Assembly (NCBI RefSeq): GCF_023168145.1
Contig: NZ_BQYK01000001.1
Span: 533,343 to 597,342 of the forward strand
Origin: Sporosarcina sp. NCCP-2222
GTDB taxonomy: Bacteria > Bacillota > Bacilli > Bacillales_A > Planococcaceae
DNA: 64,000 nucleotides
Reading direction: 5' to 3'
The position numbers were made by a program, and so were the translations under genes. Under the pieces are notes generated by a model. That model searched no databases, had not been told where the DNA came from, and saw only the letters and a program-made list of their open reading frames with translations. Position 1 is the first letter of the stretch. Each line of letters opens with the position of its first letter. Below are positions 41,923 to 56,851 of the stretch, one piece after another.

Positions 41923-42041
41923 AAATGATCCATCCATTCTTTAGAGCTATGTTATAGTTTACCCCCGACCGTCAAATTTCACAATGGGTATCAATGTTAT
42001 TGTGTATAATAAAGAAAAACAGAAAGTGTGGGGTACCTACT

Positions 42042-43307
42042 ATGTATGACGTTATTATAGTCGGCGGGGGTCCTTCCGGCTTGATGGCTTCGATTGCGGC
42101 AGCTGAAAACGGAAAAAAGGTCCTCCTGCTCGATAAAGGAAAAAAGCTTGGACACAAGTTATCCATTTCAGGGGGCGGGCGCTGCAACGTGACGAATCGC
42201 CTTCCCATCGAAGAGATCATTAAGCATATACCCGGAAATGGTCGTTTTCTATACGGTCCTTTTTCGGTTTTCAATAATGAAGACATCATCCGCTTTTTTG
42301 AAGGACTAGGTGTGCCGTTAAAAGAAGAAGATCACGGTAGAATGTTCCCAGTATCAAACAAAGCAAAGGATGTCGTCAACGCTCTCCTGTCCGAAATGGA
42401 CCGTCTTAATGTCCACGTAAAGCTCGAGACACGAGTAAAAAAACTGTTGATGGACGATACACAAGTGATAGGGGTCCGGCTTGAATCCGGCGAGGAAATT
42501 CGGTCCCGGGCCATCGTAGTCGCAGTAGGCGGGAAAGCAGTTCCGCAAACCGGTTCAACAGGCGACGGTTACCCGTGGGCAGAAAAGGCCGGACATACCG
42601 TGACCGAACTCTACCCGACAGAAGTGCCTTTACTATCGAATGAGCCATTTATCAACTCGGCAGAATTGCAAGGGCTCGCATTGAGAGATGTAGCTGTGTC
42701 TGTTTTGAATGCAAAAGGAAAAGCACTCGTTACGCACCAAATGGACATGCTCTTCACCCATTTTGGATTAAGCGGACCGGCGATTCTCCGATGCAGCCAG
42801 TATGTCGTAAAGGAAAGAAAAAAGAATGGCAATCAGCCTGTCGATATCCGGATCGACTCATTCCCAGACAAAAACGAAGAGAATGTATTCCAACTATTAT
42901 CTACCCACATCAAGGAAGATCCAAAAAAGGCTGTAAAAAATGTCTGGAAAGGCCTCGTGCCAGAACGCTGGCTATTATTTCTACTCGACCGCGCCGGCAT
43001 CGACCCTAGCGAAATCGGTGCCACGCTCGCAACCGATAAACTAAGAAGGCTCTCCACTTCCTTAAAAGCGTTCACGATGACAGTGAATGGCACCCAGCCT
43101 ATCGAGAAAGCGTTCGTTACAGGCGGTGGTGTGTCGGTCAAAGAAATTGAGCCGAAAACGATGGCCTCCCGCAAAAAAGAAGGACTTTATTTCTGTGGCG
43201 AAATCCTCGACATCCACGGATACACTGGCGGCTATAATATTACCTCCGCCCTCGTCACCGGCCGCATAGCAGGCATGAGTGCCGGGCAGTATGCTTCGGA
43301 GGGATGA
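42042..43307 (+). CDS. ytfP: HI0933/BaiN-type flavoprotein (YtfP)
   Basis: A 421-residue FAD protein. The dinucleotide-binding motif is [14 protein letters not shown] (residues 4-17), followed by [20 protein letters not shown], the HI0933 family hallmark. At the end [18 protein letters not shown] and [16 protein letters not shown] complete the FAD site. Members act as flavin-dependent reductases of unknown physiological substrate. ATG 42042 follows GTGGGGT; ATG at 41994 has no support. A TATAAT at 42005-42010 lies 32 bases upstream of the start, but a -35 is poor. It ends at a strong terminator. Confidence 0.9.
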
Positions 43308-43373
43308 AAAAATTGAAAGTGGAGGCTGTCCTGTTTTGGGCAGCCTTCATGATAAATGAATGGTCAACGGCTG

Positions 43374-43413
43374 AATGGCTTTAGCTCGGAATTCGAGGCT
43401 AAAGCCATTTTTC
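43374..43413 (+). terminator. ytfP terminator
   Basis: AATGGCTTTAGC (43374-43385) pairs with GCTAAAGCCATT (43398-43409) and runs into TTTTC. A shorter hairpin AGGCTGTCC/GGGCAGCCT precedes it at about 43323-43345. Confidence 0.9.
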
Positions 43414-43489: not shown

Positions 43490-44085
43490 CTTTTATATTG
43501 GCGTTCATTTCGGGTTATTGGCGTTCAACTCGAGTTTTTGGCAACCTGAGTTTTTGGCTTTCAGCCCGAGTTTTTGGCGTTCACCCGGAGTTTTTGGCGT
43601 TCACCCAGAGTTATTGGCTTTCACCCGGAGTTTTTGGCGTTCACCCGGAGTTTTTGGCGTTCAGCCCGAGTTTTTGGCGTTCACCCGGGGTTATTGGCGT
43701 TCGGCTTGATTTTCTGGCGTTCAGCTCATTTATCTGGCGTTCGGCTTGATTTTCTGGCGTTCAGCTCATTTATCTGGCGTTCGGCTTGATATTCTGGCGT
43801 TCAGCTCATTTATCTGGCGTTCGGCTTGATATTCTGGCGTTCAGTCTATTTATCTGGCGTTCGGCTTGATATTCTGGCGTTCAGTCTATTTATCTGGCGT
43901 TCGGCTTGATTTTCTGGCGTTCAGCTCATTTATCTGGCGTTCGGCTTGATTTTCTGGCGTTCAGTCTATTTATCTGGCGTTCGGCTTGATTTTCTGGCGT
44001 TCAGTCTATTTATCTGGCGTTCGGCTTGATATTCTGGCGTTCACCCGGTTTTATTGGCGCCCACTCATATATCCAGCGCTCTTTA
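43490..44085. repeat. 20-bp tandem array, ~29 copies, with 40-bp higher-order period
   Basis: A core TGGCGTTC recurs every 20 bases from 43499 to 44060. I count 29 copies, with a single 16-base step at the third copy (43540 to 43556). Units before 43700 are variants of TTTTTGGCGTTCACCCGGAG. From 43700 to 44030 two types alternate, GGCTTGAT(T/A)T and CAG(CTC/TCT)ATTTA after the core, giving a 40-bp dimer. The array lies between the ytfP terminator and the leuS terminator. Open frames run across it, but the 20-base period shifts the frame each unit and no ribosome site is present, so it is probably non-coding. It accounts for most of the 43414-44160 gap. Confidence 0.95.
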
Positions 44086-44159: not shown

Positions 44160-44202
44160 AAAACAGATGGAGAAAAACAATCGTTTTTCTCCATCTGTTA
44201 TA
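44160..44202 (-). terminator. leuS terminator
   Basis: AACAGATGGAGAAAAA and TTTTTCTCCATCTGTT flank a six-base loop, and the minus strand ends in T's. It lies just after the leuS stop. Confidence 0.9.
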
Positions 44203-44206
44203 AATG

Positions 44207-46624
44207 TCACTCTGCAGCGACGATATTGACAAGCCGGCCTGGAATGGCAATTACTTTTTTCAGTTCTTTGCCGTCAATCCATTGCTTTACTTGCTCGTTT
44301 TCAAGTGCTGCTTTTTCCAAGTCCTCTTTGGAGATATCTTTGGATACTTCCAATTTCGCTCTCACTTTGCCGTTGATTTGGACAGCGATCTCGATTGTGT
44401 CGTCTTGCAACTTGGATTCGTCATAGGACGGCCATGCTGTGTACGTAATCGATTCGGAGTGGCCCAATTTTTCCCATAGTTCTTCTGCAAGATGTGGAGT
44501 AATTGGCGAAATCATTGTGACGAATCCTTCCACGTATTCTTTTGGAATGGTGTCCGCTTTGTATGCTTCGTTTATGAACACCATCATTTGTGAGATGGCC
44601 GTATTGTTGTGCATCGCTTCGAAGTCTTCGGTTACTTTCTTCACCGTTTGATGGTATACCTTCTCTAGCGGTCCGCCTGTCACTTCTTTGATTTTCTCGC
44701 TAAGCGTTCCATCCTCATTGACGAATAGACGCCAAATCCGATCTAAGAAACGGCGAGATCCGTCAAGTCCGTTGGTAGACCAAGCTTTCGATGCATCAAG
44801 AGGTCCCATGAACATCTCATAAAGACGCAATGAATCCGCACCGTGCGAATGGACGATATCATCCGGGTTCACGACATTCCCTTTGGATTTAGACATTTTT
44901 TCATTGCCTTCTCCTAGGATCATGCCTTGGTTGAACAATTTCTGGAATGGCTCTTTCGTTTTAACGACGCCTACGTCATACAATACTTTGTGCCAGAAAC
45001 GCGCATACAGTAAGTGCAAGACAGCATGCTCTGCTCCGCCGACATAAATGTCGACTGGAAGCCAGCGCTCAGCCAATTCCGGATCAATGATCATGTCATC
45101 ATTGTCTGGATCGATATAACGAAGATAATACCAACAGCTTCCTGCCCATTGCGGCATTGTGTTCGTCTCGCGACGTCCTTTCATACCTGTAGCCGGATCG
45201 ACGACATTCACCCATTCGTCAATGTTAGCAAGCGGTGATTCACCCGTTCCGCTCGGTTTAATGTTTGTTGTTTTCGGAAGTGTCAAAGGCAGTTCTGACT
45301 CATCAACTGTCGTCATGGAACCATCTTCCCAATGGATGATTGGGATCGGTTCACCCCAATAACGCTGTCTGGAGAACAACCAGTCGCGAAGGCGGTACGT
45401 AATTTTCTTCTCGCCTTTGCCATTTTCAACGAACCAGGCAATTGCCTTGTCGATCGCTTCCTCTTTGCCAAGCCCGTTCAGGAATTCGGAATTGATATGC
45501 TCCCCGTCACCTGTAAACGGTTCATTCGAAACATCGCCCCCAGCTACTACTTCGACAATTGGAAGATCAAATGTCTTAGCGAATTCGTAGTCGCGTTCAT
45601 CATGTGCAGGCACCGCCATAATGGCACCTGTGCCGTAGGAAGCCAATACATAATCCGCGATCCAGATCGGCATTTTCTCGCCACTTGCCGGGTTGATTGC
45701 ATAAGCACCCGTAAATACGCCTGTCTTTTCTTTTGCTAGATCCGTACGCTCCAAATCGCTTTTCACTTTTACTTTATCCAAGTAATCGTTGACCGCCTGG
45801 CGCTGTTCATCTGTCGTAATTTGCTCCACCAATTTATGCTCTGGCGCCAAGACTGCATACGTCGCGCCGAAAATAGTATCCGGACGCGTCGTGAATGCTT
45901 CGAATGACAAGTCTGTACCGTCAATTTCAAATGTCAATTGCGCGCCTTCTGAACGGCCGATCCAGTTTCTCTGCATATCCTTCAAGCTGTCTGGCCAATC
46001 AAGCTCATCCAAATCTTCAAGCAAGCGGTCCGCGTATTCCGTAATGCGAAGCACCCATTGTCTCATCGGACGGCGTTCAACCGGGTGGCCGCCACGCTCT
46101 GATTTCCCATCGATGACTTCTTCGTTCGCAAGAACTGTGCCAAGTGCCGGACACCAGTTGACAGGAACTTCATCGATATAGGCTAATCCCTTATTAAACA
46201 ATTGAATGAAGATCCACTGCGTCCATTTATAATACTTCGGATCTGTTGTATTAATCTCACGGTCCCAGTCATATGAAAATCCTAAATCGTTCATTTGGCG
46301 TTTGAACGTCGCAATATTTTTCGCCGTAAATTCAGCCGGATCGTTGCCTGTATCGATCGCGTATTGTTCAGCCGGTAATCCGAATGCATCCCAGCCCATC
46401 GGATGAAGGACATTGTAGCCTTGTTTCCGTTTGAATTGGCTTAGGATATCGGTTGCGATGTAGCCGAGCGGATGCCCGACGTGAAGACCTGCACCCGACG
46501 GATACGGGAACATATCAAGTGCGTAGAACTTTGGTTTTGAAGGATCGTCAATCGTCTTGAATGTCTTTTGATCCTTCCAGTATTGTTGCCATTTCTTTTC
46601 AATCTGCAAATGGTTGTAACTCAT
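44207..46624 (-). CDS. leuS: leucyl-tRNA synthetase
   Basis: The 805-residue class I synthetase charges tRNA-Leu. The HIGH-equivalent is [13 protein letters not shown] (about residues 42-54). The editing domain (CP1) holds [20 protein letters not shown] and [13 protein letters not shown] is KMSKSKGN near residue 578, and the C-terminal anticodon-binding region ends [22 protein letters not shown] at 46624 has AAGGA upstream, 8 bases away; in-frame codons further up lie in the T-box leader. Length equals the B. subtilis enzyme. It is regulated by a leucine T-box. Confidence 0.97.
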
Positions 46625-46669
46625 GAAATCATTCCTTCCTGCTCTCCAAATCATGTCCTTGCGAGTATG

Positions 46670-46925
46670 GGGGAAAATAAAAAAATACCCCCGTCCCTTA
46701 TGAAAAGGGACGAGAGTATTTTCTCCCGCGGTGCCACCCAAATTAGCAGATTACTCTGCTCAGCTTGATCCGTAACGAGGAAAACGGCACCGGCTAGTTT
46801 ACATTCACCGATACGGGCTCTAAGGCGAGTTCATCCTTGCGTCGTACAGGCTTGCACCAACCGCCTGCTCTCTAAAACGACCTTCCAGATTACTACTCCT
46901 TGTCATAGCCGACACTATTTAGAGT
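46670..46925 (-). promoter_or_regulatory. leucine T-box leader of leuS
   Basis: On the minus strand: AGAGAGCAGGCGGTTGGTG landmark near 46875-46857, and a specifier GAACTCGCC with the Leu codon CTC at 46829-46827. The antiterminator box TGGCACCGCG is at 46736-46727. The terminator GTCCCTT/AAGGGAC (46711-46705, 46699-46693) is followed by a T-run. A -10 TACAAT lies at 46937-46932; its -35 is poor. Uncharged tRNA-Leu with a GAG anticodon should turn leuS on. This fills most of the 46625-46988 gap. Confidence 0.92.
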
Positions 46926-56685: not shown

Positions 56686-56851
56686 TTTATGCGCGGCTAC
56701 CAGGGCCGTATGCGCGGGTAGCAACTGTTTATGCGCGGCTACCGGGGCCGTTTGCGCGGATAGCAACTGTTTATGCGCGGCTACAAGGGCCGTATGCGCG
56801 GGTGGCAACTGTTTATGCGCGGCTACCAGGGCCGTTTGCACAGGTACCCAG
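56686..56851. repeat. 42-bp tandem array, four units
   Basis: Units begin at 56686, 56728, 56770 and 56812. Each starts TTTATGCGCGGCTACC, continues GGGCCGTATGCGCGG and ends TAGCAACTG. The unit is made of two ~21-base halves that share TATGCGCGG. Most units carry GCTACC and GGTAGC, which can pair as a hairpin. Because 42 is a multiple of 3, long frames appear on both strands (LCAATRAVCAGSNC plus, ALVAAHKQLLPAHT minus), but without ribosome sites. It lies between brnQ and cstA, in the otherwise empty 56470-56880 stretch. Confidence 0.92.

Follow-up and report, generated by a model that had tools for sequence, protein, structure and literature searches.

The question raised by this locus is what role a regular array of short direct repeats could play in the gap between a ytfP-like gene and leuS of Sporosarcina sp. 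NCCP-2222. In the window, which is the whole 64,000-nucleotide stretch of DNA that was analysed, the array occupies positions 43490..44085 on the plus strand and consists of about 29 units of about 20 bp with degenerate edges. An earlier note, made from the sequence alone, had described it as a 20-bp tandem array of about 29 copies with one 16-base slip, and this was confirmed by direct reading and by TRF, which returned periods of 20, 40, and 60. There are 27 core-like units at 20-bp spacing between 43499 and 44054 (25 of them with an exact TGGCGTTC core), and the total of about 29 also takes in the 16-base slipped unit AGTTTTTGGCAACCTG (43533..43548, plus strand) and the degenerate right-edge units TTGGCGCCC and CCAGCGCTC. 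A comparable slip occurs at locus L022 of S. cyprini. The array is mostly monomeric from 43499 to 43688 (plus strand), with TTTTTGGCGTTCACCCGGAG-type units, and dimeric from 43689 to 44048 (plus strand), where TTTATCTGGCGTTCGGCTTG and ATTTTCTGGCGTTCAGCTCA together form a 40-bp higher-order unit. The claim that later units alternate to give a 40-bp period was thus borne out, and the idea that the array grew by expansion of dimer units is supported. The same holds for the proposed helical phasing, as 20 bp corresponds to about two turns.

The ytfP-like gene (41994..43307, plus strand) encodes an FAD-binding enzyme of the aminoacetone oxidase family (TIGR00275) and is followed by a hairpin and T-run terminator at 43373..43412 on the plus strand (z -4.2). 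On the minus strand, leuS (44207..46741) encodes leucine--tRNA ligase (TIGR00396), and a terminator, likewise a hairpin with a T-run, lies after it at 44162..44199. The array therefore sits between two terminators in a convergent gap, as the earlier note had stated. Its non-coding call is supported as well: stop codons are found in all six frames, 16 of 25 long arrays lack any open frame, and the unit length is not a multiple of three, so a coding array was rejected. Genes at this and the other loci were called as simple ORFs. The window also holds another array of this class, at 56686..56846 (plus strand). It has a 21-bp period, a 42-bp dimer, and the core TATGCGCGG, which indicates that the genome holds several core families. 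A hairpin adjoins this second array.

A genome-wide search for the core at 20-base spacing, which the earlier note had suggested, revealed 37 or more TGGCGTTC arrays, which together comprise about 580 units. Contigs of this assembly (G000) end inside or beside arrays (C6:1-197, C11:1-98, and near the ends of C14 and C15), and therefore all counts and copy numbers are lower bounds. The step is nearly invariant. Across the genome, 397 core pairs were found at 20 bp against none for a reversed control, a number well above anything due to chance, and 383 of 387 adjacent exact-core pairs (no more than 22 bp apart) are separated by 20 bp, the remaining four being at 17, 18 or 21. The family logo built from about 580 units at 37 loci reads (R)TWWWY-TGGCGTTC-RNYYCG. 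Each of the eight core positions is about 95-99% conserved across these loci, and the flanks are two-fold degenerate (W at -4 to -2, Y at -1, and R at +9). The remainder of the unit differs by locus but is homogenised inside each locus, often as AB dimers. A plain replication-slippage minisatellite, one of the explanations first put forward, is insufficient here: 37 loci combine the same core with differing spacers, and this core is more conserved than its flanks.

The TGGCGTTC core is confined to close Sporosarcina species, namely S. luteola, S. cyprini and, sparsely, G067. A collection-wide scan found only scattered and mostly single matches elsewhere. S. cyprini is the nearest to the window genome among the loci compared, and 18 arrays could be aligned with their S. 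cyprini orthologues. All 18 have the same orientation but different copy numbers. The ytfP-leuS array has 27 copies against 20 in its orthologue, and other pairs vary strongly (34 against 12, 7 against 31), so that the suggested comparison among relatives gave arrays at orthologous sites whose copy numbers differ widely. Orthologous loci were located via the core, and the comparison is accordingly silent on the rate of array loss. Identity to the S. cyprini orthologues is 96.9% in the core, 92.1% in the flank, and 84.0% in the spacer. For six S. luteola orthologues the values are 95.5, 83.9, and 73.3%, respectively; in both comparisons, whole-unit misregister in the alignments artificially lowers spacer identity. 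The earlier note had held that an array unique in its genome and absent from close relatives would be unlikely to have a general function. The opposite was found, as the array belongs to a class with many loci in several species.

Further analysis of the leuS-ytfP gap revealed that most other Sporosarcina also carry arrays there, with different cores. The scan covered periods of 15-30, and only 20 or 21 were seen at this gap in Sporosarcina. The cores include GCGCTCAAG, GCGCTCATA (which alternates with GTGATCATA), GCGTCCAAAG, CCTAAAGC, CCGCYCGTT, GTGATCGATAA, and ATCGGCC. In about 19 species the leuS-gap cores are mutually similar and are all oriented in the direction of leuS. This pattern fits the descent of a single ancient array whose word changed along the way, although a replication-strand bias common to these species could also produce it. 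Since S. luteola and G067 carry GTGATCGATAA in the leuS gap, the TGGCGTTC array of the window looks like a replacement. Pairs of GCGYYCAW, a pattern also present in part of the TGGCGTTC arrays, were found in 43 of 61 Sporosarcina genomes, with up to about 500 per genome. The reversed control pattern, when scanned class-wide, matched TACTCGCG arrays with a 21-bp step in another Planococcaceae genus. In G272, from another genus of this family, highly regular 21-bp TACTCGCGGAA arrays occur at many loci (for example C19:11131-11726), and they came to light solely through their match to the reversed control. A survey of 60 stretches of 20 kb, taken arbitrarily from 20 genomes and mostly from other Planococcaceae genera, found non-coding arrays with periods of mostly 21 bp (11) or 40-41 bp (5), those of 40-42 bp being dimers. 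The shuffled-sequence control gave one match. Several unrelated cores were found to coexist within one genome. A fixed step, often in the same gap, combined with a different word in each species suggests that these arrays are landing strips for a putative DNA-binding protein.

Repeats of this kind have been described before. In Bacillus and other bacteria, 20-21-nt repeats of constant size were reported whose sequence is species-specific and which contain short conserved sequences; their length of two helical turns was remarked on, and nucleoid proteins or small RNAs were proposed as their roles (Subirana and Messeguer, 2021; PMC8161180). The present arrays share the 20-21-nt step, the non-coding nature, the species-specific word, the conserved short sequence, and the presence of several families per genome. 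They differ in belonging to Planococcaceae and in having alternating 20/21 (41-bp) dimers. New in the present case are the Planococcaceae members themselves, the core-specific conservation, the persistence of array sites whose cores have switched, and, in one complete genome, a strand bias of GCGCTCAAG. The literature search found no direct paper on TGGCGTTC or on Sporosarcina repeats.

Other known systems resemble the arrays in part. REPs are palindromes that form hairpins and are mobilised by RAYT. The REP/BIME elements of gammaproteobacteria are likewise found at many intergenic loci, are species-specific, and often lie beside terminators, but the present arrays are direct repeats without palindromes or hairpins and show no excess structure on either strand, and this identity was rejected. 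Iterons and type II partition sites also contain direct repeats about two turns apart, and such repeats (for example the 20-bp repeats of pSK41 parC) are covered by an oligomer of DNA-binding proteins. The present arrays, in contrast, are chromosomal and found at tens of loci, with no Rep or Par gene at the borders examined. No rep or par family was found among about 42 array-flanking proteins searched, and a plasmid iteron or partition site was therefore rejected. Alpha satellite is a eukaryotic satellite with a protein box (CENP-B). It has higher-order dimers, concerted change, and a conserved box in diverged monomers in common with the present arrays, which are instead short, bacterial, and spread over dozens of intergenic sites. 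A CRISPR array was rejected on the grounds that spacers inside an array are near-identical or alternate as AB. A mobile element was rejected as well, the loci sharing only short edge matches in their flanks, and no array copies were found in viral contigs, phages or plasmids.

With about an even chance of being right, and judging from sequence patterns, the array would be a row of about 29 same-facing sites for a putative sequence-specific, oligomerising, architectural DNA-binding protein. The putative site is WWWY-TGGCGTTC-R, roughly 13 bp long. Its conserved core with two-fold degenerate flanks is as expected for a protein footprint. Adjacent sites lie two helical turns apart, so that bound subunits would align on one face of the DNA and could touch, and the protein might polymerise along it. 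The asymmetric word, the adjoining W tract, and the exact two-turn step are what a cooperatively binding row of proteins would require, and a word that persists as its spacers and copy number vary is a sign of selection on binding. Bound intergenic arrays may organise the chromosome or block polymerases. Copy-number differences and dimers suggest that unequal exchange or slippage alters the length of the arrays, and between species the core word would turn over, presumably along with its binder. Of the earlier proposal of a nucleoid or partition protein array, binding by a protein is supported as one candidate, but the analysis identified neither a nucleoid nor a partition protein. Assorted chromosomal genes border the arrays, with no common partner or recurring neighbour among the approximately 42 flanking proteins searched. 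Against the binding model, coexisting unrelated cores need several proteins or one tolerant protein.

Moreover, an enzyme that recognises the core and amplifies it would also yield shared cores with local spacers. This main rival to the binding model, which has a real but clearly smaller chance of being correct, supposes that the core, with a fixed two-turn footprint, is the target of a nickase, recombinase or replication-restart factor, which amplifies it together with whatever 12 bp are adjacent, leaving selfish or by-product satellites without benefit to the cell. Spacers that are locus-specific from birth, dimers, degenerate edges, the strong variation in copy number between orthologues (as in 34 against 12 or 7 against 31), and the lack of a recurring neighbour gene all agree with it. 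It accounts less well for a core that remains more conserved than its flanks after divergence, for flank positions that are themselves constrained, for arrays retained at orthologous sites, and for loci without common flanks that would point to a carrier element.

The remaining explanations are less supported for the TGGCGTTC family. Arrays are found in tandem, divergent, and convergent gaps, with convergent gaps enriched (13 of 31 gaps with arrays against 55 of 278 without, p = 0.01). Together with the position of the window array between two terminators, this would suit a roadblock or insulator, in which the bound array between convergent genes halts transcriptional read-through from either side. 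Such a role is unlikely, however, as over half of the arrays are found in tandem or divergent gaps, and convergent gaps are also the least constrained location. A replication-polarised element, KOPS/SRS-like or a polar fork barrier, is slightly less probable again. It draws on GCGCTCAAG arrays of G062, of which about 10 of 10 in arbitrary stretches of the minus arm lie on the minus strand, and of which the listed forward matches fall in the plus arm, between 0.47 and 1.06 Mb, although this plus-arm sample was mostly picked from forward matches. These arrays appear to keep the strand of their arm even between opposite-strand genes. The TTATCRRTCA family of the same genome, on the other hand, is found on both strands, and the TGGCGTTC family shows no significant bias in three genomes (23 against 14 in the window genome, 8 against 8 in S. 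luteola, and 24 against 12 in S. cyprini); a KOPS/SRS-like motif co-oriented with replication was rejected for it. The least probable role is that of a transcribed small RNA or repeat RNA sponge. Small RNAs are one of the two ideas of the satellite study, in which 52-nt repeats of B. coagulans were seen in RNA-seq (PMC8161180). The TGGCGTTC arrays, however, have no structure beyond shuffles (mean z -0.2 and +1.0), no Rfam match above gathering score, no promoter-like site, and no orientation relative to neighbouring genes (8 same and 8 opposite in tandem gaps), and an RNA element was rejected.

A class of bacterial repeats known for its fixed size and species-specific sequence gains an experimental handle here: a putative recognition site about 13 bp in length, 37 or more arrays in a single genome, sister species to compare, and a natural series of species with the same gap architecture and a different word. 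Should a binder exist, it would form a DNA-binding system acting on the scale of the chromosome and changing its specificity from one close species to the next. A broader and more doubtful extension is a coevolving protein-satellite system of Planococcaceae, in which sites and the two-turn step would be kept for a very long time, the word would be switched genome-wide with a fast-evolving binder, and some families would mark replication direction. Such a system would be the bacterial equivalent of the turnover of centromeric or PRDM9-like sites.

Several smaller observations accompany these results. In the complete genome of G062 (L325-L364), GCGCTCAAG arrays appear to be arm-dependent (for example C1:474616-475233, 900034-900847, and 2523265-2523858). 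Beside an array locus lie coding-type repeats whose periods are 27 and 30 bp (L133:14043-14819 and L083:5947-7199), and their extent differs between the window genome and S. cyprini. In both of these genomes, ATTTGGCG arrays with a 21-bp step adjoin TGGCGTTC arrays or related loci (L124:3722-3868, L127:3625-3766, and L039:4223-4403), and ATTTGGCG is possibly an intermediate or parent family.
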